Shown here: positions 10,808 to 26,798 of the stretch, piece after piece | Layout: each line of letters starts with the position of its first letter | Position numbering within the stretch: position 1 is the first letter of the stretch | Virus record (IMG/VR): IMGVR_UViG_3300037245_000905 | Coordinates: 1-32,573 of that record | Length of the DNA stretch: 32,573 nucleotides | Source: a virus | Reading direction: 5' to 3' (one strand) | Notes under the pieces: generated by a model | The model's input: only the letters and a program-made list of their open reading frames with translations | Database searches by the model: none | Told to the model about the DNA's origin: nothing | Position numbers and translations under genes: made by a program

Positions 10808-13800
10808 TTATACAATCTTTGTATCGTTCCCTAAGTCATCTGTAAACCATAGCTCACAAGGATCGGCATTCTTAACCCACAACTGGCCGAACCCAGCCGT
10901 ATCACCCTCCGACGCAGCCTTCTCAGCCATACGGAGTGAGCCATGAGTCTTTATCTCTAGCAGACTCGCCGAGCCTAGAACCATCTGGTTCGACATATCT
11001 GGTTCAGCGTTATACCCTATCGCCGTGGAGTCCTCGTACACAAATTGTGGAGTGAGCTTATGCCCGGTGTAAGAGCTTGATGAAGTGATGCCCCTTGAGA
11101 TAACCTCCAGAGTATTTGCATCATAAATTAAGAAAAGTATGATCTCATCATCTGGCATACCGGGTATCGCTCCTGTACCCTGTTCAAATTTCAGATTTAG
11201 GTACGTTCCATTTGCACCAAGACCATGACCCGTTACCGTGATACGATCATTGGCAACATCAAGATCAGAGTCATCAAAATTCACAGCACTTCCTGCATCC
11301 TCCGGGAATGCGTTGAAAGACTCAACGCCAAAAGCGATATTGTTGTCACCATCATTATATCTCCCTGCATTCAATCCAACAGCAAAGCAAAAGTCTCCTG
11401 TGTTTTGTTGACCAGATAGATAGCCGAATGCAGATTGGTAATTTCCAGTGTTGTACCGACCGGCATAATAACCAACCTGTGTACCACTATGACCCAAACC
11501 ATTACGTCCTGCTAAGTACCCTACAACCGTTCCTTTTATCTGGGGTATCAAAGCTGAACCTGCTCCGACTGCTGTGAAGAATAAGTCGTTGTCGAATCTA
11601 AGATTGCCACAATAGATGTAGTCATCAATAGCATCCGTCCAGTCTATATGCTCATCCTCTACAAAGTTGGTTAAAGCATTATGATCTATAGATGCTTCGA
11701 GGTCACTTGCCGTTTCTGCGATAGTCCTCACGGCATACGTATCATCAGCAGTGAGCTTTATAAAACTAGGCGAAACGTATGCGAGTCCAGAAATTGAGGT
11801 AAGTGCAGCATCGAATGCCTGCACGTCTGTACCTATTACTAAACTTAACTCTGCTGGTGTCACTGAATGTGGGTTGCCAGAAGTCAGCAAGCTGTGGTCA
11901 TAAGCTGCTTTAACATTAGCCACGGTCAACTCATTCGTACCATCACTGAGATTACCAGCAAGATATAAATTCCGATAGGATGTATAATTATAAGTTATCG
12001 AACCAGACGACCACGTTTTGAAGTAGTAGTCAACTCCGCTTGAGGAATTCCAGAAGGTTCCATTTGGCTGACCAGAATAACATCTACGACCACCAGCATA
12101 TACATTGCCATTGTAATGCACGAAGTAGTCATCATCATCCCCGGAAGGCTCAATAGCTATAACATACTGGGTGGTTGCTGAAAGAGATATAGGCGTCTCT
12201 AGGTCAAAGTCAAAATCTTCACCAGAAGTATTGTCAGTAATAGCACTCCCGTCTACCGTCACACTTGCTAACGGGGTCGGAGTAGTCGAAGGATTAGGCA
12301 CACCACCAAGAGCAGCATAAACGTGCAGGGTAAGATTCCCGGAAGCACCAACTTTTCTACTCATCCTGAAAGTTGCTCTCCCCAGATCAAAAGCCCCTAT
12401 CGTGGTGAAGCTCTGCCCCTCCCAACGATTAGCCCTAATACCCAGTCTGTTTGTTCCGGGGTTCGTTGTACTAACTATCTCTTCTGTGTACTCTGGTGGT
12501 ACTTCTGTTCTCTCCCCTATGTCATAAGTGTCATCTTCATCAGGGATTACACCACCAGTGTTCAGGACATCATTAGCATCCATATCCAGATCACCAGTCA
12601 TAGCTCTTGTACCAGCAAGGTCAAGATAAAGCAAGTGGTCATCAACGTCACCAAGACCAGAGATAGAGCCGTGGTCAATACCACTTTGAGCCGTAAACTC
12701 TAAGGCCGTCTCGCCAACATTAACTCTTGCGAATTTCAAAGCTTGATCGACATACGTAGACGGTGTATCAGTTAATCCTAAGAATGTTGTAATGCCACTT
12801 CCACCTGCACCACCACCAGCCGTAGAGTTCGGGATGAATCCTCTCAAGTCCTGATAAGAGTCGCCACCATCATAGTTTATCGTACTGGCTTTTCTCTGTA
12901 TCGTAAACCTTCCAATGAGAAAACCAACACCCTTATACAAAGAAGGGATGGCATAGTTTGCATAATTAGAAACGTCAATCTGTGCCTGTGCTTCCGTAAC
13001 GTAATCAGTTTCAGGAAGATTGCACATCACATGAGAAACCTCACCACTCTTATTGCATATTCCCCATACAACTATACTGAGCCATCTGTTGTTTGCAATG
13101 GTCCCACCATCGGCTGTTTTCGTTATACTGTTCAGAGTAGTTATAGGATTGTATGCAGTGTCCGGGTCATTCACAACATGAAGTATATCAGTCGGCATTT
13201 CAAATGAAGGAAAAGTCTGTTCGTGCATCTGGTATACTTTACCGGAAGTTACAGATACATACGAGTTCGCTGTATCAGCTACCGTCAAAGTTGCTTCTGT
13301 ACCAGACTTCCACTCAGCGACCATCGCTCTTATTCTTTGACCGAGATGAGACAGATGCCCTTGATTGTTAACAGTACTCTGGATTTCATCATTCCAGTTC
13401 TGATTTCGTAAAGGCCCTTCTGTTCCAACAGTTGCAGCAGACTGCATTACTAACTCAGCTACTCTTATGTGTTCTGCTGCGGGCCATGACGTATCTGCTG
13501 TTAATACCTTTGTTGATTGTGGGATAAAGATATAGCATGTTAGAGGAACCGTATCAGTTCCGACATACGCAGTGATATCAATGGTTGCTCCGGGGTCTGT
13601 ATCGAGCATTGTAAAGCCATCACTGAAAATCATAGTCATATCAGGATGACTGTTGGTCGGCGTAAGTGTGCCTGTCACAGTCCCAGTATCTTCTGTTACT
13701 CTAAAATCAAATGGCTCTCTGAAAGCTCCATTCCAGAAATTCTGAATAGTATCTGTAATCTCATTCGTGATAGAGACAGTGACGTTCCCATCTTCTACAC

Positions 13801-14428
13801 CAACAACACCTACGCCACCGATCAACAAGCTATAGTTAGGGAACGCCGGTGCAGTATTTGTAAGATCACCTGCTACGGCTGCATCAAGGTAAACAAACCC
13901 CGTTGACAATCCAGAAGTATTTATGCCACGAACTTTCCCAGACCTTGTTGCAAGTCCGTATTCACCTATGGCAATAGTGGAAGTAACTACCGCTAAAGTT
14001 CCAAAGCAGTTTAGGAAGTTATCAGCTTGAGCGTATGCAACATGAGGCGTACCATCCGCGGTAACGCCACCTGTGGGATGAACTACTTTTCCATCTGTTA
14101 ACTCAGCCCCAGTATTATTATATACCTTGAACACAAACTCTTGACCCAGTTGAAGAACCGGACCAAGACCAGTCGTGACATCAATAGTATGGTCATCGGC
14201 ATTCCACTTTACTCTGCCTTCAGGACCGTCACCGGGAGTAGCTGTGATATCGAAGTCAATGTAACTGACATCGGTGATCGGATTACCTGTCATGCCCAAG
14301 CTGCCGTTAAGGGTCAGTCCCGCAAATGTAGGTGTAGCCCCAGTGTTCAGTGCAGCATCAAGTTTAGCGATAGAGTGACAGATACTGTTCACATCTTGGG
14401 GATTAGGTTTTGGTACGAGTCTGGACAT
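10808..14428 (-). CDS. Tail fiber / host-recognition protein, 1206 residues
   Basis: A long modular beta-rich protein. The N-terminal part is likely for virion attachment. Shaft motifs typical of phage fibers recur: DDHLLYLDLAGTRAMTGDLD, DDTYDIGE near 635, YRNLYLAGNLSDGTNELT near 818, and NFVEDEHIDWT. Between the two halves of the TYDIG/YRNLYL motif sits a jelly-roll-like domain of about 150 residues (about 663-810). Residues about 966-1042 hold a YadA-head-like roll with repeated Y/A-x-G-x-x-AG/SG units (GYYAGRYNTG, FGYLSGQQNTG, VGLNAGRYNDG). An ITVTGHGL domain follows, and the chain ends FGQLWVKNADPCELWFTDDL. Probably trimeric and host-binding. Confidence 0.85.
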   Translation of the reverse strand: MSRLVPKPNPQDVNSICHSIAKLDAALNTGATPTFAGLTLNGSLGMTGNPITDVSYIDFDITATPGDGPEGRVKWNADDHTIDVTTGLGPVLQLGQEFVFKVYNNTGAELTDGKVVHPTGGVTADGTPHVAYAQADNFLNCFGTLAVVTSTIAIGEYGLATRSGKVRGINTSGLSTGFVYLDAAVAGDLTNTAPAFPNYSLLIGGVGVVGVEDGNVTVSITNEITDTIQNFWNGAFREPFDFRVTEDTGTVTGTLTPTNSHPDMTMIFSDGFTMLDTDPGATIDITAYVGTDTVPLTCYIFIPQSTKVLTADTSWPAAEHIRVAELVMQSAATVGTEGPLRNQNWNDEIQSTVNNQGHLSHLGQRIRAMVAEWKSGTEATLTVADTANSYVSVTSGKVYQMHEQTFPSFEMPTDILHVVNDPDTAYNPITTLNSITKTADGGTIANNRWLSIVVWGICNKSGEVSHVMCNLPETDYVTEAQAQIDVSNYANYAIPSLYKGVGFLIGRFTIQRKASTINYDGGDSYQDLRGFIPNSTAGGGAGGSGITTFLGLTDTPSTYVDQALKFARVNVGETALEFTAQSGIDHGSISGLGDVDDHLLYLDLAGTRAMTGDLDMDANDVLNTGGVIPDEDDTYDIGERTEVPPEYTEEIVSTTNPGTNRLGIRANRWEGQSFTTIGAFDLGRATFRMSRKVGASGNLTLHVYAALGGVPNPSTTPTPLASVTVDGSAITDNTSGEDFDFDLETPISLSATTQYVIAIEPSGDDDDYFVHYNGNVYAGGRRCYSGQPNGTFWNSSSGVDYYFKTWSSGSITYNYTSYRNLYLAGNLSDGTNELTVANVKAAYDHSLLTSGNPHSVTPAELSLVIGTDVQAFDAALTSISGLAYVSPSFIKLTADDTYAVRTIAETASDLEASIDHNALTNFVEDEHIDWTDAIDDYIYCGNLRFDNDLFFTAVGAGSALIPQIKGTVVGYLAGRNGLGHSGTQVGYYAGRYNTGNYQSAFGYLSGQQNTGDFCFAVGLNAGRYNDGDNNIAFGVESFNAFPEDAGSAVNFDDSDLDVANDRITVTGHGLGANGTYLNLKFEQGTGAIPGMPDDEIILFLIYDANTLEVISRGITSSSSYTGHKLTPQFVYEDSTAIGYNAEPDMSNQMVLGSASLLEIKTHGSLRMAEKAASEGDTAGFGQLWVKNADPCELWFTDDLGNDTKIV

Positions 14429-14454: not shown

Positions 14455-15216
14455 TTAGTTACCGAAATCGAGATAGTTATTCATCCCGATATTCATGCCG
14501 TAAGCGGATGAACTTAACGGCTTCGACGAAGAAGTAGTTACTCTCGCAACGTCACCCCCTACAGGTGGACCCATTAACGGTTTCTTAGCATAGGTTGCTG
14601 CACCGAAGTAAACCCCCGGAGTCTTAACGGCTGGCTTATACGGCTGCAAGTTCAATGAAAGTGGCTTGGCCTTCTCAGTTTTCTTAGCCGGTGCCGCTGC
14701 CGTGGGTCGAGTAGGAGGCTGATAGCCCGGTGCCCTACCTGTACCGAAACCGGGAGTTGCACTGCCACCGCCGCCACCACCATAGCTCGCTGCTAGGGGA
14801 GTAGTTGAAGTCGTGGTGCGAGCAGCCATCGATCCCTCCATACCTGCTTCCTGTGAGAGTATACCAGACATAGCAGAGAGTCTCGCTGTAGTCGCTCGTG
14901 CCAATGCAGGTTGTGCTACTTCTTCTTGATACTTCTTGCTAAGTCCACCCATCATCGAGGTGCCTGCCAGTCCAGCGGCTGCGAGACCCTGCATACCACC
15001 AGCTACAGCTTTCTTTTCTCCGCGTTCAATATCAGCTCCGATACCAGCCATGTACTTACCCTCTGGGGCATAGATGGCCTTAGCCTCTTCAAACAGGCTA
15101 CGCATCTTTTTGAGTGCAGCGGGATCGGTAGTTTGTCTCGTAGTCGCGGTAGACGAGCCACCGCCGCTAGGATATACCCTAGCCTGACTTATTTTGCCTT
15201 TACCTCCAAATGCCAT
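14455..15216 (-). CDS. Low-complexity virion protein, 253 residues
   Basis: GGAGG lies eight bases from the start, which overlaps the hub stop. A helical core (AALKKMRSLFEEAKAIYAPE to about residue 115, including GGMQGLAAAGLAGTSMM) is followed by a Gly/Ser/Thr/Pro-rich tail (SYGGGGGGSATPGFGTGRAP). Position between hub and fiber suggests a small structural or assembly component. No family recognised. Confidence 0.62.
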   Translation of the reverse strand: MAFGGKGKISQARVYPSGGGSSTATTRQTTDPAALKKMRSLFEEAKAIYAPEGKYMAGIGADIERGEKKAVAGGMQGLAAAGLAGTSMMGGLSKKYQEEVAQPALARATTARLSAMSGILSQEAGMEGSMAARTTTSTTPLAASYGGGGGGSATPGFGTGRAPGYQPPTRPTAAAPAKKTEKAKPLSLNLQPYKPAVKTPGVYFGAATYAKKPLMGPPVGGDVARVTTSSSKPLSSSAYGMNIGMNNYLDFGN

Positions 15217-16853
15217 TATTTACGCCTCCCAGAATCTTTCAAGTAAACAGATAGTTCTTCAAACCCCCAGCTTTCACCAGCGGTTGTATTCTCTAACTTT
15301 ACACCAAGGTAAACTCCTCGTGCAGTTTGTCGTCTAGTCGATCCTCTCAAATTTCCGGGGCCGACAAAGGTGCCAGCGAAATTAGGACTGGTACCAGCGT
15401 TCATCTTCTCCAAGATAGCAGCAGAAGTTCTCGCTGTGAATACCTTGAAATCAACGTCATCCGAGTCAGCCTGTGAGCCATCGGGTAAACCACCAGCGAC
15501 AGTGAGATCGAGTCCAGCGATAGTGCCCTCTCTTTGTGACACATCTGACATATGAACCGGGGCGAGAGAAACCTGACTGGAGATTGCAATTTCACTTCCA
15601 GAAAAAGCTACATCGTTCTTGGTAGCTTCATCAAAGTTTCTTATGTAACCATTGGTGCCCCCAAGGACAAGTCCCTTGAGCGTAGGATCATTGGAGTCAT
15701 AGTAAACTCCAGAGTAGATGCCACACTCAGTAGGATAAGTCTCAGGGAAGAAACCGCCAACTTCATTATCATCAAGTGCGTTAAGATCGTAGAAATAATT
15801 ACTGTTAGCACCAGTCGCCAGAACAGTAATAGCAACTAAGACACCATGCCTGTCATTGTCATACAGCAATGTTACCCTGTGAGTAAGCGGGCTTGCTGCT
15901 TCGTTTTTAATCAGACGTGGTAACTTAAATTGCGAGATGCACTGTGGTACACCGGGTATCGTTGTCCTGTAGAGTCCGTTGTTCCCCCAGAAGTAAAAGT
16001 TATTGGAATTATCCCAGCAGTAAGAGTTAGCACCAAAGATGCCGGTCGTTAAAGAAACTTCCCTTATAGCACCACCAGCCATAGGATCACCAAACATGGC
16101 CCATACGCTACTGGCACATCCAAAGACAAGGTAATCATCTTTATACGGAGCGAGGCATCGGACAATATCTCCAAGCTCGCCTAGATCGCTGGCACCACCA
16201 TAGACAGGAGACCCCGGATCATTGGCTATATAAGCAAAGTCAAATGGATTAGCCTGTCTCGTCATATACCACTGCTCAGGATGCTCAGGATCACCGGACA
16301 AAACGCACCGACCATTATACAGGCATCCAAGATAAGCCCTATTAGGCATCGACCCGGAAGCCCCACCAGCATACGGTGTCCAGTCATACCAATGAGGAGG
16401 ATCGGCTACATCACTCGGAGTGAAACCAGAGCCATCGCCACTGCCAGTAACAGCAGTAGATGTATCAAATGCCTCGGCATCACCAGCGTAATAAGCGTAA
16501 CCGTAAGTAAGCGTCTTCGCAGTGTTGGTAAACTTAATTACCATGTAAGCGACATCGCCACCGCCCTGATCTTGAGTGAGGAGATCACCGAAAGCATGTT
16601 GAGTGCCAAGGGCTGAGTGCGTCAACTTCGTATTACCGAAGTCAGCTACCTTCAGGTTAGCACCATTCACTATGAAGGCACTTTGAAACGCATTGAACAT
16701 ATTAAGTTGATCGGTTGTATCGATGTCGCCATTCGCGGCGGCCAATTCTACCATAGTCCCAGCGGCCATATCTAAATCCTCATACCATAATTCATTCCTG
16801 CCGATAGCAACAAGTCGGCGTAAGTTATTATACTCCGTGAGTGTCACAGCCAT
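15216..16853 (-). CDS. Tail hub / DNA-stabilisation-like protein, main body
   Basis: 545 residues from the ATG at 16853, which has GAGG seven bases upstream; the longer frame to 16871 is less likely. Residues about 11-26 are RRLVAIGRNELWYEDL, then a beta-rich body with NGANLKVADFGNTKLTHSA and, near 178-207, YNGRCVLSGDPEHPEQWYMT followed by NPFDF. That last signature is what I would expect in podoviral tail tubular protein B/P22 gp10-like hub proteins, which plug and stabilise packaged DNA. The usual N-terminal part of such proteins appears to be missing here and encoded separately (17723-17959). The start overlaps the stop of the upstream gene as TAATG. Confidence 0.75.
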   Translation of the reverse strand: MAVTLTEYNNLRRLVAIGRNELWYEDLDMAAGTMVELAAANGDIDTTDQLNMFNAFQSAFIVNGANLKVADFGNTKLTHSALGTQHAFGDLLTQDQGGGDVAYMVIKFTNTAKTLTYGYAYYAGDAEAFDTSTAVTGSGDGSGFTPSDVADPPHWYDWTPYAGGASGSMPNRAYLGCLYNGRCVLSGDPEHPEQWYMTRQANPFDFAYIANDPGSPVYGGASDLGELGDIVRCLAPYKDDYLVFGCASSVWAMFGDPMAGGAIREVSLTTGIFGANSYCWDNSNNFYFWGNNGLYRTTIPGVPQCISQFKLPRLIKNEAASPLTHRVTLLYDNDRHGVLVAITVLATGANSNYFYDLNALDDNEVGGFFPETYPTECGIYSGVYYDSNDPTLKGLVLGGTNGYIRNFDEATKNDVAFSGSEIAISSQVSLAPVHMSDVSQREGTIAGLDLTVAGGLPDGSQADSDDVDFKVFTARTSAAILEKMNAGTSPNFAGTFVGPGNLRGSTRRQTARGVYLGVKLENTTAGESWGFEELSVYLKDSGRRK

Positions 16854-16867
16854 TATATATCCTCGTA
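16851..16867. repeat. Gene-boundary repeat, copy 1
   Basis: CATTATATATCCTCGTA. Read on the - strand it encodes the final Tyr-Glu-Asp plus one residue and the stop of the upstream gene, while its GAGG and ATG start the hub gene. Copy 2 at 17957-17973 differs by one base. Confidence 0.75.
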
Positions 16868-17704
16868 CCAAACCTCGTTATTGCTAATCGCCACTAGACG
16901 CTTGATCGTACTTAGGTTCGTTGACGGTGGCATAAGGCTTTCCACGGTGAACGTCCACACTGACCCAGTTACCACATCTACACCATCATTGCCGTCGATC
17001 CGCCACGAGTACTCTTGTCCCAGTGTCAGAGTATCTGAGATGGTGAGTGACAGTTCTCCATACCCAGTTTCTACGAGGACCATTGATCCAGTCGGCCCAA
17101 AATAAACTTCGTAGTCATCGAAGTCAGGATCATTAGGGTCGGCCCACGATAAGTCGACACCGCCAGATGGCTGTCCAGTTGCTTCATCAGCAGGCGATGG
17201 GGTATCAACTTGGCTGTTTCCTGTTGCCGCCCCCCATGCTTGAAACCACATGCCTTGCGTGTTTATAACGCCGGTCCACGTAGAACCACTATCAGATGAA
17301 GCCCCCCTGTATCCTGATGTGTTGCTAAAACCATAGGCCCACTGAAACATATTACTGCTGTTAGGTCCAGCAGATGATACTACTACGACGTACTCTTGTC
17401 CACTACTAAGTGCCAGAGGAGACGATAAAGTAAATGTTATCTCAGCCTCAGATGTCGGCAGTAACGCTTGGAGAATCTGTACGGTAGCTAGGCTGGACCC
17501 AGTTGGTTTATGTGCCCCATCAGCAGCGAATATATCTACATCGACACTGACACAGTTATTTACCCGTTTACCTTCTAGGACGATGTACTCTAAGTCATAG
17601 CCACCAGAAGGAGTAAAGGTGTTCATTTTATAAAAGGTGCTGTAAACATTTTCGTAGAGTGACCCGAAGTTATTCGGCTCGTTGTAATTGTATTTAGTAC
17701 TCAT
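16853..17704 (-). CDS. Two-domain beta protein with hub-derived C-terminal peptide
   Basis: Residues about 15-158 form a jelly-roll-like anchor domain (FTPSGGYDLEYIVLE, LSSGQEYVVVVSSAGP, MWFQAWG) similar to the domain inserted in the fiber. Residues about 165-255 are fibronectin-III-like (PSPADEATG, LSWADPNDPDFDDYEVYFGP, YSWRIDGND, VWTFTVE). The last 17 residues (IKRLVAISNNEVWYEDI) copy the N-terminal peptide of the hub gene. Probably a tail decoration or host-binding protein; fibronectin-like domains on phage tails often serve weak surface adhesion. It sits between the two apparent halves of the hub protein. Confidence 0.7.
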   Translation of the reverse strand: MSTKYNYNEPNNFGSLYENVYSTFYKMNTFTPSGGYDLEYIVLEGKRVNNCVSVDVDIFAADGAHKPTGSSLATVQILQALLPTSEAEITFTLSSPLALSSGQEYVVVVSSAGPNSSNMFQWAYGFSNTSGYRGASSDSGSTWTGVINTQGMWFQAWGAATGNSQVDTPSPADEATGQPSGGVDLSWADPNDPDFDDYEVYFGPTGSMVLVETGYGELSLTISDTLTLGQEYSWRIDGNDGVDVVTGSVWTFTVESLMPPSTNLSTIKRLVAISNNEVWYEDI

Positions 17705-17722
17705 ATCGTCACCCGATTAAGT

Positions 17723-17959
17723 TTACAAAACAGAATCCACAACGCACATAGCTACTACCGGCTGACTACTTCCACCGATGAGGTCTCCATTTCCCCACAG
17801 TGCCTGACCAGCCCGCTTACCGCCTCTCGCCTTGTTATCAAGGACATCATACAGTCTCACGTTCAGCATATCAGGAGCAGTAGCAAATGGCTGTTTTGAA
17901 GTCGCCAAGCCTTTGTTAACACCGAGCAAAGGAAACGTAATATTCTTAGGTTTACCCAT
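17723..17959 (-). CDS. N-terminal fragment of a tail hub protein, 78 residues
   Basis: MGKPKNITFPLLGVNKGLAT and the following KQPFATAPDMLNVRLYDVLD plus GGKRAGQ resemble the conserved N-terminus of podoviral hub/stabilisation proteins (pattern GGV...QP..T.PDALNVR...GR.RGG.RPG). In relatives this would be followed directly by the propeller-like body; here it stops after VVDSVL and the body is found 0.9 kb further at 15216-16853. It may be a functional split subunit or a remnant after cassette insertion. The start uses GAGG within the last codons of the upstream gene, overlapping its stop as TAATG. Confidence 0.65.
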   Translation of the reverse strand: MGKPKNITFPLLGVNKGLATSKQPFATAPDMLNVRLYDVLDNKARGGKRAGQALWGNGDLIGGSSQPVVAMCVVDSVL

Positions 17960-17973
17960 TATACATCCTCGTA
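17957..17973. repeat. Gene-boundary repeat, copy 2
   Basis: CATTATACATCCTCGTA, the same arrangement as copy 1 at 16851-16867: end of one reading frame (Tyr-Glu-Asp-Val, stop), ribosome binding site GAGG, and start codon of the next gene, all in 17 bases. Confidence 0.75.
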
Positions 17974-18813
17974 AAATATTTTGTTCTGTGCAGCAGCTAT
18001 CAACCTACGTACTGTTAGCTGGTTGTTCTCTCCTGTTGGTACAGGGTTCCCGGCTTTAAGCCGTGTTGAAACTGTCGGCGGGTAGAAAGGTACGGTAGTA
18101 AAACTCCATATCACAGAGTCAAACAGACCGCCACCCACTCTGGCTGCTTGAACTTGCCAGTAGTATGTAGTATTATATTCCAACCCGTACAAAACTTTTA
18201 TGTTAAGACTCGTCCTAAACCCTTGCAATAAATCGTCATCGGTAAAATTCGAGTCATCTTTTCTTAGGTAAATGAAAAAGAAATCGCCGTCTTCCTCTCC
18301 GCCGTTTACAGTCCATGACAGTGTAGGGTCCATCCTTACATCTATAGCACCGTTATCTGGAGACGAAAGTAGTACCTGTCCGTCAGGTACCAAAGTCGTG
18401 AACGTAAACTCTGGGGAGTCATAGCTCCTTGTTACCATCCCAAACGTATCCGTGTTATGAGTTACGTTTATCCTTATCTTCCACGTATGCTCCGTTCCGC
18501 CAGCTAAGTCAGAATTTATAGGCACGATAGTCCTTACCGACCACGGAAGGGGCTGGGACACTACTATGGTCCCATCATCTATAGCTGGAGACTCGATAAG
18601 CTGGGCCGAGTTTACAGTAACTGGCTGAACATGTGCCGTTCTCCACTCCGCACCGCCGCCCGCATCGTAATATTCGTTTATAGTTGCGAGGGCTGATAGC
18701 TGAGATAATGCCACTTCTATTTCTGTAGCGTTATCTTCTGGGGAGATGGAAAAATTATACGGAGGTATTTCTACATCTGGCTGCCCCCAAGCTGTATCAC
18801 CTATACTAGCCAT
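17959..18813 (-). CDS. Fibronectin-III-like protein with hub-derived C-terminal peptide
   Basis: 284 residues. The first half is a degenerate beta-sandwich (EHTWKIRINVTHN, YDSPEFTFTTL). The second half is a clear fibronectin-III-like domain: SSPDNGAIDVRMDPTLSWTV, then YNTTYYWQVQAARVGG and VIWSFTTV. The chain ends with VRRLIAAAQNKIFYEDV, related to the hub N-terminal peptide. GGAG lies about eight bases before the start, and a Rho-independent terminator lies just upstream. Likely a virion surface decoration. Confidence 0.7.
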   Translation of the reverse strand: MASIGDTAWGQPDVEIPPYNFSISPEDNATEIEVALSQLSALATINEYYDAGGGAEWRTAHVQPVTVNSAQLIESPAIDDGTIVVSQPLPWSVRTIVPINSDLAGGTEHTWKIRINVTHNTDTFGMVTRSYDSPEFTFTTLVPDGQVLLSSPDNGAIDVRMDPTLSWTVNGGEEDGDFFFIYLRKDDSNFTDDDLLQGFRTSLNIKVLYGLEYNTTYYWQVQAARVGGGLFDSVIWSFTTVPFYPPTVSTRLKAGNPVPTGENNQLTVRRLIAAAQNKIFYEDV

Positions 18814-22146: not shown

Positions 22147-23232
22147 TTAGGCTGCTTTATGCAACACGAAGCCAGACTCACGCCTGTTCAAGCACAGGTT
22201 ATTGTGGGCACCGTCAAGGAACACGGTGAACGTGGTGTGCTGTGTACGGTCCGTAATAGGTTCGCCCTCTTCCATCCAGTAACCGTCATGGACGTAAGGA
22301 ACAAACTTGGCGAAGTCAAGACAGTACATAGGACTGTAAGCCGCACCATTCAACTGATTGATCGGAACAACTGGAAGCCGGTTGACGTAGACCAAACCAG
22401 TGTCGTCCATCTTGAGATTACCCAGAATGTCCTTGCCGCTGTGCCTGTCATCACGCTGGTCGGCCAAGTCCATAAGACGCGTCACCGTGTCAAAGTCAGT
22501 GTACACACGCTTGGCACCAGAACGCTTGTCAGATGGGTCCTTGACAAACAGAGGAGCTTTGAACTTGGTGTACATGAATGCAAGACGGAAGGACCGCAGC
22601 AAAGTATTATCCACGTTTGCATACAGAGCAGCGTAGTTACGCCACTTGGTCTCAGAAGCAGCATCGATGCCCGCACAAAGAGTCCCGGTACTTGCGTCCT
22701 GATAATCAATAGTAGCACCAACGAAACCGCTGGAGGAATTAACCGATCCAGCCGCGTTCTTGATGTTCATGTAGTACGGAACACCGTTGGGGTACAGATC
22801 ATCAGAAGCACTCGTGGGTGTCTTCCACGCACGATCTTCGATGAGGTTAGCCAAAGCCCAGAGACCGTCAACACGCCTGACTTTCATCAGACTGATGAAG
22901 CCCTTAGCAGAGTTCTTCTGCTGAAGAATTTCAAACTTCTCCCACGAATAGTTCGTTCCGATCTGAGTCCACGGAACCTTGATAGTGTGAATGACATCAC
23001 CGACTGTGGGATTGTCAGTATCAAAGGACCTACGATACCGAGCATTACCAGTGTTGTCAAGCATTACTTTACGCTCGATCTGCGTACCACCGTCAATAAC
23101 CATACGCTCCTGTTGATAAATTCGGCAGAACTCGTAATCGTTATTGTCCCAACCGACATCGAAAGTCTGGTTAGGGAGATCATTGATAGTGGTTGCGATC
23201 AAGTCAGCAAGATCAGCGTTTTTTACGCCCAT
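22147..23232 (-). CDS. Major capsid protein
   Basis: 361 residues, the length and position (after scaffold, before head-associated gene) expected for an HK97-fold coat protein. The N-terminus is helical (ADLADLIATTINDLPNQTFD), then a long extended region (VIDGGTQIERKVMLDNTGNA), a central domain with TKWRNYAALYANV, and a strand-rich end (THTTFTVFLDGAHNN-type segment). GAGAGG, overlapping the scaffold stop, lies seven bases upstream. The call rests on synteny and overall pattern more than on any single motif. Confidence 0.8.
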   Translation of the reverse strand: MGVKNADLADLIATTINDLPNQTFDVGWDNNDYEFCRIYQQERMVIDGGTQIERKVMLDNTGNARYRRSFDTDNPTVGDVIHTIKVPWTQIGTNYSWEKFEILQQKNSAKGFISLMKVRRVDGLWALANLIEDRAWKTPTSASDDLYPNGVPYYMNIKNAAGSVNSSSGFVGATIDYQDASTGTLCAGIDAASETKWRNYAALYANVDNTLLRSFRLAFMYTKFKAPLFVKDPSDKRSGAKRVYTDFDTVTRLMDLADQRDDRHSGKDILGNLKMDDTGLVYVNRLPVVPINQLNGAAYSPMYCLDFAKFVPYVHDGYWMEEGEPITDRTQHTTFTVFLDGAHNNLCLNRRESGFVLHKAA

Positions 23233-24720: not shown

Positions 24721-24981
24721 TTATTTCTTTTTCTTCCTACGCTTCTCTGCTTCTCTCTCAGCGTCAGTCTTGAATTTAGTCCCTGCCTTTTTGAGTTCAG
24801 CCTTAGTGCCCTTGGTCCTCGCGGTCTCAAAGTGTTTCTTTACTTTACCCTTGAGTTTTGACACCCAGCTTTTCTTTTCTTTCTTCTTGGGTGCAGCTTT
24901 CTTCTTGGCTGACTTCGCATGACTGGCGGCTATCCTAACCGCTTTCTTCATTTCTTCCTTTGACATTTTCTTCTTCGGCAT
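24721..24981 (-). CDS. Lysine-rich basic protein, 86 residues
   Basis: Roughly a third of residues are Lys (for example KKKAAPKKKEKKSW and the terminal EKRRKKKK), with a few helix-forming Ala/Glu segments. Such proteins bind nucleic acid by charge; between portal and zinc-ribbon genes, a packaged DNA-condensing protein or a scaffold partner (the scaffold has a strongly acidic region) is plausible. AGGAG lies seven bases before the start, which overlaps the portal stop as TAATG. Confidence 0.65.
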   Translation of the reverse strand: MPKKKMSKEEMKKAVRIAASHAKSAKKKAAPKKKEKKSWVSKLKGKVKKHFETARTKGTKAELKKAGTKFKTDAEREAEKRRKKKK

Positions 24982-26798
24982 TAGTAAGCTCCTTGTCCTG
25001 CTTGTGGGGCACCACCTTGAGCGACTTGACCAGCCTCTTTGCCCGGCGATGCTATATCTCGTTTCATGGCGTAGCCACCGTTCTGTGCTATACCCGGTTG
25101 CGGCCCTGCCTTACGTGTTGATCCCGGTGTCCCTGCTCCAGCCTGTCCACCGCCGCCCTTGTTCTGAATCATCATCAGATACATTTCCAATTTCTGCTGG
25201 AATTCAGGATCGGTAAAAAGCTCTTGAACCCAGTCACCGATTTCGAGTTCCTCACCCGCCATAGTTAAGGCGTGCTGGAAGTTGAACGGCATACCGAGTT
25301 GCATCATCATCATGGCCGTATTAGCCAGAGCCGGTACTACATTGGTCATAAACTCCATCAAGCGTTTTGACCGAACAGCAGGGTCTAGCCGTGACATAGA
25401 CTTCGACCTGATCTTGTAGATATAGTCGTCAACGTCTCCACGCACCTGTGCGGGTGTCAACCTTACCTGCTCTTCTTCTTTTCCGGGTTGCCTACGTGCG
25501 AGTATAATGTCCATCAGGGGATCATTACGCAAGTACCAAGCACAGTCATGGCTGATGCCTGCTGTACCGTCATACAGGATGTCTCTTGAATCCTCTACAG
25601 AAATTTGAGCGTTACCCTGTAAGATGTTAGCCTGTGTAGCTGTCTCTGCTTCACTGGACGCACCGGAAATCTGATCCGGGTTGCCTGACATATAGTTGAA
25701 CCATACCTGCAACTGAGCAAGCATCTGCTCGTTACCTTTGTTCTGACCGCCGAATGATACTGTCTGGGCACCCTTCGGGTCGTCAGTAGCAACAGCTTCA
25801 CCGTTCTCAGCGTCAAGAATATCTTGAGCAACATCAGCGTGTGAAGGTTTGAACAACAAGATGTCTTTCTGGTCTTGCGACTGATCCAGAATCTTATTGA
25901 ACGTAGAGTTAGCTGCTCTGTGTAGATCGAAGTACAAACTCACAGGAGCAATAGGCATCGGGTTATCATCAACAGGAGGTGTGAAGCTCAAGTAACGATA
26001 AGGCCCAGTCTTAGGACCATAGTAATCAGTAATGCCGAGGTACTTCTCGAACGTCACTTCTCTCGGATCGGGAATAGTCACGAGAGCGTCAGCACCCGGA
26101 ACCCACAACTCGACCACATTGACTATATCCATCAGGTCTTTCATCTCGAAAGCACCAGCACGAGACCTCGATATCTCCGCTGTGGCCCGCGTATCACCAG
26201 TGTACATCGTAGCCGATGGTAACTTCATCACGAGATCATGGTCATATAAGTCACTGCCTAATAGATGGGCACGCGGTACGGATGTTCTGTTACCGACAAA
26301 CGACGACTCAGTTATGCTCTTACATAAAGGATCGATCACCCAGTCATCGAGGTCAACCAGAGAAACATAAATCTCGCCGGGATCAATCTGCTGGTTATCT
26401 ATAACGATATAACTGTCAGAAGCAGAGATACCAGTTTTCACTATGCCCATGCTGAACATGGCAGATACTACCCATGCACGCAACAGGGCTTTCAAGTTGA
26501 CCCGCTGTGCTATCTTATCCAAAGCCAACGACTGCAACTCAGCATAGTCTCTATACTCTAAGTTGTCAGTGGTAACTTCGTTACGCGGATTCCTACTAAC
26601 GATAGCCGGGACTATGGATCGAATAGCCGAGAACAGTAAGTTAATTGGCTGATCCCCGGTAAGGCCATAACTCTGCGAGTAGTACTGCCCGCAGAATTCT
26701 TTGATGAACATCGCCCTCGCACGACGAAACACTTTCAGCCGGTCGAAGCCTTTCCTCACCACTTCTTGTATCTTCATTGGACTTATTTGTTCAATCAT
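24981..26798 (-). CDS. Portal protein
   Basis: 605 residues, immediately downstream of the large terminase (two-base gap), the usual position of the portal ring that docks the packaging motor. N-terminal helices (RKGFDRLKVFRRARAMFIKE) lead to INLLFSAIRSIVPAIVSRNP, a pattern common in portals of environmental podoviruses. The middle holds GEIYVSLVDLDDWVIDPLC, then STFNKILDQSQDQ and SGNPDQISGASSEAETATQA, also typical. The C-terminus is a Gly/Gln-rich tail (QAGAGTPGSTRKAGPQPG). Start codon AT-rich with weak GGGAT upstream. Confidence 0.85.
   Translation of the reverse strand: MIEQISPMKIQEVVRKGFDRLKVFRRARAMFIKEFCGQYYSQSYGLTGDQPINLLFSAIRSIVPAIVSRNPRNEVTTDNLEYRDYAELQSLALDKIAQRVNLKALLRAWVVSAMFSMGIVKTGISASDSYIVIDNQQIDPGEIYVSLVDLDDWVIDPLCKSITESSFVGNRTSVPRAHLLGSDLYDHDLVMKLPSATMYTGDTRATAEISRSRAGAFEMKDLMDIVNVVELWVPGADALVTIPDPREVTFEKYLGITDYYGPKTGPYRYLSFTPPVDDNPMPIAPVSLYFDLHRAANSTFNKILDQSQDQKDILLFKPSHADVAQDILDAENGEAVATDDPKGAQTVSFGGQNKGNEQMLAQLQVWFNYMSGNPDQISGASSEAETATQANILQGNAQISVEDSRDILYDGTAGISHDCAWYLRNDPLMDIILARRQPGKEEEQVRLTPAQVRGDVDDYIYKIRSKSMSRLDPAVRSKRLMEFMTNVVPALANTAMMMMQLGMPFNFQHALTMAGEELEIGDWVQELFTDPEFQQKLEMYLMMIQNKGGGGQAGAGTPGSTRKAGPQPGIAQNGGYAMKRDIASPGKEAGQVAQGGAPQAGQGAY

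Follow-up and report, generated by a model that had tools for sequence, protein, structure and literature searches.

Tail nozzle of an uncultured phage family encoded in pieces, with a predicted second start in the hub gene and a portable hairpin that may complete the hub in trans

The window analysed here is the whole 32,573-nucleotide stretch of the virus record IMGVR_UViG_3300037245_000905, and the genes in question are four on its minus strand, which encode, in order, a 284-residue protein, a 78-residue protein, a 283-residue protein and a hub protein of 545 residues (coordinates in Table 1). A short peptide, predicted to form a hairpin of two strands, is found near the N-terminus of the hub and again at the C-termini of the 283- and 284-residue proteins, which we call decoration or donor proteins. 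We propose that the hub is the main part of a tail nozzle made of separable pieces, that the hub gene has two starts, and that the hairpin-less hub expected from the second start receives its missing hairpin in trans, from a decoration protein. Judged from comparison of the window with its relatives (individual loci carry L numbers), we put the probability of this reading at roughly 0.7.

The hub gene is predicted to keep a hidden second start for a hairpin-less form. In the window, the hub hairpin ends in the same arrangement as the two decoration genes, lacking only the stop codon: the Glu-Asp codons, GAGGAT, form a Shine–Dalgarno sequence and are followed by an in-frame ATG. Among the hubs whose short N-terminus bears the hairpin, the next codon after it is ATG or GTG in 47 of 47 (40 GTG, 7 ATG), so that a predicted in-frame internal start with a ribosome-binding site is conserved in every one. 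First seen in 29 loci, this pattern also held true for 18 more that were retrieved afterwards.

The choice of codon at this boundary is unusual. Where the column holds Val, the codon is GTG in all 31 cases, whereas across the 33 other Val columns with enough sequences GTG averages 15% and never exceeds 38%. Codons are shared at only 43% of identical residues, and synonymous sites are therefore scrambled. An effect of the Val-Ala or Asp-Val context on the boundary GTG was ruled out, since GTG makes up 17% of Val codons before Ala or Ser and 19% of those after Asp or Asn. The pairing energy with the anti-Shine–Dalgarno sequence has a median of -5.6 at the boundary and of -1.2 at 660 other in-frame ATG or GTG codons (p ~1e-25). 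The Shine–Dalgarno sequence also persists where the residues change, as GGAGG in L023 and L024 and as GAGG shifted upstream in L005, L021 and L028. The Glu codon within it is GAG in 37 hubs and GAA in 8, as against 5 and 13 in fused hubs with no donor.

The internal start follows the presence of donor genes. It is found in 49 of 49 hubs that lie downstream of a separate gene with a hairpin tail and in none of the 21 that lack such a gene (Fisher p 2.6e-18), the latter being hubs fused to a variable domain. L123 and L126, the two fused hubs with such a gene upstream, both have the start. On a tree of 92 hub propellers, from which the hairpin region was excluded, eight independent pairs differing in donor presence were all concordant for the start (p 0.008). 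A separate observation concerns L164, which has no donor; here GAGGAT is kept but the start codon is replaced by ACT, a pattern suggestive of recent loss of the internal start, as would be expected after loss of its use.

Some relatives have only the shorter hub. In 24 contigs, the hub begins at a MAAGTM-like sequence, with neither a hairpin nor a longer form, and in all 24 the hairpin lies at the C-terminus of a separately terminated open reading frame (ORF) just upstream. Thus in every hairpin-less case the acceptor lacks an element which a partner protein carries, the arrangement that fold completion in trans calls for. The sequence-only reading of the window had suggested that the peptide docks the decorations onto the hub by strand exchange, and these 24 hubs are strong evidence for docking of that kind, by complementation with a strand or hairpin. 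One of them, L188 (WTBT01000015.1), is a contig of a Candidatus Aegiribacteria metagenome-assembled genome and was the sole match in the cellular genome collection, which gives a hint of the host range of the phage family.

The identification of the hub as a nozzle comes from its predicted structure. An AlphaFold2 model built from 44 relatives has a mean predicted local distance difference test score (pLDDT) of 85.6, and in a Foldseek search with it the top ten PDB matches were all phage tail or portal–tail structures (E 4e-12 to 2e-7; sources Pa223, SU10, LME-1, VP1, E1004, GP4 and Carin 1). The structures matched include those of Pa223 (9nwi), SU10 gp17 (7z47), VP1, GP4 and P22 gp10. With VIA-align, Pa223, SU10 gp17, P22 gp10 and VP1 gave Z of 18–19.5 over 376–417 residues; unrelated propellers also reached Z of about 18, but over only 250–280 residues. 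The model thus matches solved beta-propeller nozzles over most of its chain, and by predicted fold the hub belongs with the tail nozzles P22 gp10, SU10 gp17 and T7 gp12. PHROG 376 ('tail protein') is matched by 16 of 44 hubs, and one unsplit relative matches PHROG 578 ('head closure Hc3'). The hub sits in a block of virion structural genes which also holds the portal (24981-26798; PHROG 1216, with SU10_portal below cut-off) and the major head protein (22147-23232; PHROG 9953). Searches by sequence gave less: no useful match to a solved structure was found in the PDB, no Pfam or PHROG family for the window proteins around the peptide save a weak Ig-like match in the 284-residue protein, and, by tblastn against cultured phages, no relative of the hub (E limit 1e-3) or of the 78-residue protein (E limit 1).

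The rest of the nozzle appears to lie in the neighbouring genes. The hub model aligns to solved nozzles starting only at their residues 59–84 (in Pa223, SU10 and P22, model residue 7 onward corresponds to residues from 65–73 on), and the hub therefore lacks an N-terminal part about as long as the 78-residue protein; a complete nozzle chain is obtained only when the 78-residue gene is added. A profile of the 78-residue protein matches the N-terminus of single-ORF homologues. In such relatives (for example L074, L087, L091 and L096), one chain runs from the N-terminus through a variable domain and the hairpin (such as SRELIAVCGGDIYHGD) into the propeller. This order, together with the profile match, indicates that the window genes correspond to one nozzle cut around its first hairpin. 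On these comparisons, the nozzle of this uncultured phage family is encoded in pieces, the 78-residue gene being the N-terminus and variable domains standing between it and the hairpin. It is most likely that the separate decoration genes were derived by cutting a single protein, because in unsplit relatives the hairpin follows the variable domain directly within the chain. In L066, the 78-residue part, the insert and the hub ORFs are all in one frame, a natural three-part read-through. Neither the split nozzle with its N-terminus in the 78-residue gene nor the conserved start behind the hub hairpin had been recognised in the sequence-only reading.

That reading had begun from the shared peptide, and its peptides and coordinates all proved correct on recheck. 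The hub protein starts MAVTLTEYNNLRRLVAIGRNELWYEDLDMAAG, and the 283- and 284-residue proteins end KRLVAISNNEVWYEDI and RRLIAAAQNKIFYEDV, each followed by a stop. Scored with BLOSUM62 against the hub peptide, the 283-residue peptide reaches 64 and the 284-residue peptide 49; the best other 15-mer in the six frames of the window scores 25, and the maximum over 20 shuffled windows is 31. The similarity among the three proteins is far above chance. The two 17-base gene boundaries do differ by a single base, as had been noted, and what they share is mostly the Tyr-Glu-Asp codons, which double as a Shine–Dalgarno sequence, plus the TAATG overlap of stop and start. The accompanying view that hub sequence had been copied to the ends of the two genes is not supported, at least as a recent event. 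The 45-nucleotide peptide segments agree pairwise at only 29, 25 and 22 of 45 bases, so the relation is an old one at the protein level and not a recent copy of DNA, and most hairpins on inserts are nearer to the inserts of other phages than to the hub of their own, forming mostly a separate lineage. The 283-residue hairpin of the window is an exception, being intermediate between the types and closest to its own hub.

The hairpin, which is widespread in the phage family and not peculiar to the window, behaves as a portable terminal module, as had been supposed. A search of the relatives found about 49 separately encoded proteins, in about 40 contigs, which end with the hairpin, with 0–3 residues to the stop and the next start mostly directly behind. 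These proteins are otherwise unrelated (Pfam domains fn3, Laminin_G_3, DUF4082, He_PIG, Big_5 and others), and when 47 of them are aligned, conservation of 90% or more is confined to Met1 and the L, Y and E of the hairpin. Relatives with the same domain types keep the hairpin, whether fused or separate; fibronectin genes that had lost the cassette would have spoken against a module of this kind. Foldseek with the model of the 283-residue insert gave only general Fn3 and phage fibre or baseplate matches. The hairpin is well ordered in the hub model and less so in the 283-residue protein, where it follows well-ordered domains and a flexible linker (Table 1). Two residue patterns can be distinguished: insert-type hairpins have Ala at position 8 in 34 of 40 and Lys at position 11 in 26 of 40, and hub-type hairpins have Gly at position 8 in 21 of 28 and Glu or Asp at position 11 in 17 of 28. 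Where the locus is complete enough, donor genomes contain at least two hairpins each, except L050, in which one was found; fused genomes with no donor contain one.

These observations suggest the following assembly. The 78-residue protein would supply the N-terminal part and the first propeller strand, and the hub gene the remaining propeller, whilst the hairpin between those pieces would be provided either by the hub or by the C-terminal end of a separate decoration protein. Translation from the first hub start would yield a long hub which completes itself with its own hairpin and remains bare; translation from the second start, directly behind the hairpin, would yield a hub whose hairpin slot is empty. 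Into this slot, beside the strand from the 78-residue protein, a decoration protein would place its own C-terminal hairpin, and the decoration would thereby become part of the propeller and be displayed on the nozzle. The pairing of strands between hub and donor is inferred here from predicted secondary structure and from homologues. The last codons of the hairpin (Tyr-Glu-Asp) would also recruit ribosomes to the next gene; one short piece of DNA could thereby be both docking tag and site of translation restart, allowing modules to be added or exchanged. Both hub forms would presumably be made, and a single ring may mix subunits. We hold only tentatively, at somewhat under even odds, that the nozzles are mosaics, in which empty-slot subunits are filled one by one by any hairpin-tailed protein present and stand next to bare subunits.

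Other explanations of these patterns can be weighed against docking in trans at the hub slot. It is conceivable, though in our view unlikely, that the decoration hairpin docks elsewhere, at another blade edge or subunit or on the 78-residue protein alone, and that the short hub serves another purpose. The two residue patterns, and the nearness of most insert hairpins to those of other phages, would fit such an arrangement, as would the tendency of split genomes to keep one hairpin of each kind and the presence of a hub-type hairpin next to the hub in the captured class. It accounts poorly, however, for the 24 genomes in which the only hub-type hairpin among the neighbours is on a separately encoded protein, since there at least the hub-type hairpin has to work in trans and occupy its own slot, and for the dependence of the internal start on donors. 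We think it very improbable that the peptide and boundary are instead a DNA-level exchange point, a short homology for recombination of tail modules with no docking involved. Gene content between the 78-residue gene and the hub does change fast, with 25 or more changes of class along the hub tree, but the peptides of the window have diverged widely in DNA whilst their protein pattern is conserved, and the boundary codons vary freely, the start codon excepted. The 17-mer itself was rejected as a DNA element, since its conserved parts, the Tyr-Glu-Asp codons and the stop/start overlap, are both variable among relatives.

Two further explanations remain to be weighed. The GTG or ATG might be an unused relic, left from a hairpin-less hub which later gained a hairpin, and some own-hairpin and hairpin-less hubs are indeed closely related (L027 and L186, L013 and L029). 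A relic would hardly retain GTG at every boundary Val while other synonymous codons are scrambled, nor would its Shine–Dalgarno sequence outlast residue changes, and no internal start is seen in the 21 hubs without a donor; the chance of this explanation appears slight. Frameshifting or stop read-through could fuse insert and hub, so that the genes would not be truly split, and the short TAATG overlap, as well as the five hairpin-less cases in which stop and start share a frame, might be read in this way. The relation between the frames of the upstream ORF and the hub is, however, 2, 0 and 1 in 17, 5 and 2 of the 24 cases, with TAA, TAG or TGA as stop and varying gaps, and programmed frameshifting or read-through was rejected on these grounds. 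With the hairpin made on another protein and all three frames in use, recoding cannot be a general explanation; furthermore, hubs with their own hairpin would then have two in one chain. We regard it as scarcely credible.

Several points weigh against the split nozzle completed in trans. The Shine–Dalgarno signal at the boundary is partly forced by the conserved Tyr-Glu-Asp. The consistent difference between insert-type and hub-type hairpins (A8/K11 and G8/E11) may mean two docking sites instead of one shared slot. No match to a solved structure was found by sequence with the profile of the 78-residue, N-terminal protein. The automatic class labels of L007, L020, L047, L057, L063, L070, L126, L155, L158 and L178 were corrected by eye, and the relatives are all metagenomic contigs except for the one metagenome-assembled genome.

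Table 1. Features of the nozzle locus in the window, with the basis for each
Feature	Position	Strand	Basis or remark
Hub (tail nozzle protein), predicted long form, 545 aa, with own N-terminal hairpin	15216..16853	-	AlphaFold2 pLDDT 85.6; PDB matches are phage nozzles
Predicted short hub form, 517 aa (MAAGTMVEL...), no hairpin	15216..16769	-	Internal start in 47/47 comparable hubs; 24 relatives start here
Predicted internal ATG start (long-form codon 29)	16767..16769	-	Conserved across comparable hubs
GAGGAT, Glu-Asp codons of the hub hairpin, putative Shine–Dalgarno sequence for the internal ATG	16776..16781	-	Duplex energy
Hub copy of the hairpin, RRLVAIGRNELWYED	16776..16820	-	Hub residues 12-26; predicted strands 15-18 and 21-25; block pLDDT 84-88
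Gene boundary TACGAGGATATATAATG	16851..16867	-	Hairpin end, Shine–Dalgarno sequence, stop overlapping long-form hub start
C-terminal hairpin KRLVAISNNEVWYED of the 283-aa protein	16859..16903	-	Two strands, pLDDT 50-58; linker before them <50
Decoration (donor) protein 1, 283 aa	16853..17704	-	Predicted beta-sandwich domain, Fn3-like domain, flexible linker, C-terminal hairpin
78-aa gene, probable detached nozzle N-terminus, ending in the strand before the insert (PVVAMCVVDSVL)	17723..17959	-	Profile matches single-ORF N-termini
Gene boundary TACGAGGATGTATAATG	17957..17973	-	Precedes the 78-aa gene
C-terminal hairpin RRLIAAAQNKIFYED of the 284-aa protein	17965..18009	-	Insert-type
Decoration (donor) protein 2, 284 aa	17959..18813	-	Ig-like domain (Big_5, E 4e-4, below cut-off); insert-type C-terminal hairpin

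Some further features were seen around these genes. Downstream of the hub, the window encodes a 1206-residue fibre-like protein (10808-14428) with no Pfam match, and similar long proteins follow the hub in relatives. The hubs of L007 (6001-7899), L051 and L057 show a partial tandem duplication of the propeller start, with two overlapping profile matches in one protein. ORFs resembling HNH endonucleases lie between tail genes in L003 (3179-3898 and 12451-12918), L126 (925-1608 and 1972-2265) and L164 (35-484); one of those in L126 appears to split an Fn3-type decoration gene into two halves. Directly before the last decoration gene, or before the fused decoration–hub gene, is a tail-like protein of about 140 residues (FSNYLE..LDH..GVGAYSAPT..), at L155:3-434, L158:1110-1529, L188:3943-4347 and L126:2303-2803.

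The proposed arrangement can be compared with known systems. In SU10, a short tail fibre docks on the blade 1 loop of the nozzle (PMC9509320), and in T7 gp12 both ends of the propeller, N- and C-terminal, contribute strands that close blade 1 (PMC6702177). The nozzles SU10 gp17, P22 gp10 and T7 gp12 are seven-bladed beta-propellers closed at blade 1 (velcro), and the hub model matches those of SU10 and P22 directly. They are, however, single polypeptides of fixed composition, whereas in these phages the chain is divided among two to four genes, with the breaks around the hairpin, other proteins could supply that hairpin, and the hub gene has a predicted internal start.

Completion of one protein's fold by a strand of another is familiar from donor-strand complementation in chaperone–usher pili. 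In the pili, the strand is N-terminal and fills out an Ig fold within a polymer, whereas in the phages a C-terminal hairpin would complete a propeller blade; the two are not homologous. In phage M13, the short product G11p comes from an internal start. This short in-frame protein and the long G1p assemble into one ring-like complex (PMC9228878). The M13 short form works without the tag of a third protein, in contrast to the start described here, which lies at a structural seam and tracks donor genes. The capsid proteins of T3/T7 and Kuravirus also occur in two forms, with and without an Ig-like decoration domain (PMC9965538); there a -1 frameshift adds a C-terminal domain, whereas an internal start and complementation in trans would be used here. 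In the open-licence papers searched, no account was found of a nozzle that is split or is completed by hairpins of other proteins, or of a start codon kept at such a seam only when partners are present, which is weak evidence of novelty.

If the proposed reading is right, virions should contain hubs with two different N-termini, and a hairpin-tailed partner should be found in the nozzle. The hairpin tag could then also find laboratory use as a means of fixing proteins to nozzle rings. For the phages themselves, it would amount to a natural plug-in system for the tail tip, in which domains unrelated to one another are docked, by a short tag at the C-terminus, onto the nozzle through which DNA is ejected. 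This would explain how tip domains are swapped or added, several at once, with no need to rebuild the nozzle gene, and the reason for keeping the internal start would be that a partner protein provides what the fold lacks. Should the nozzles also be mosaic, one virion might show several decoration or receptor-binding domains alongside bare subunits, the two starts of the hub gene would govern the proportions, and any gene ending in the hairpin and ribosome-binding module would be enough to gain a new tip protein.

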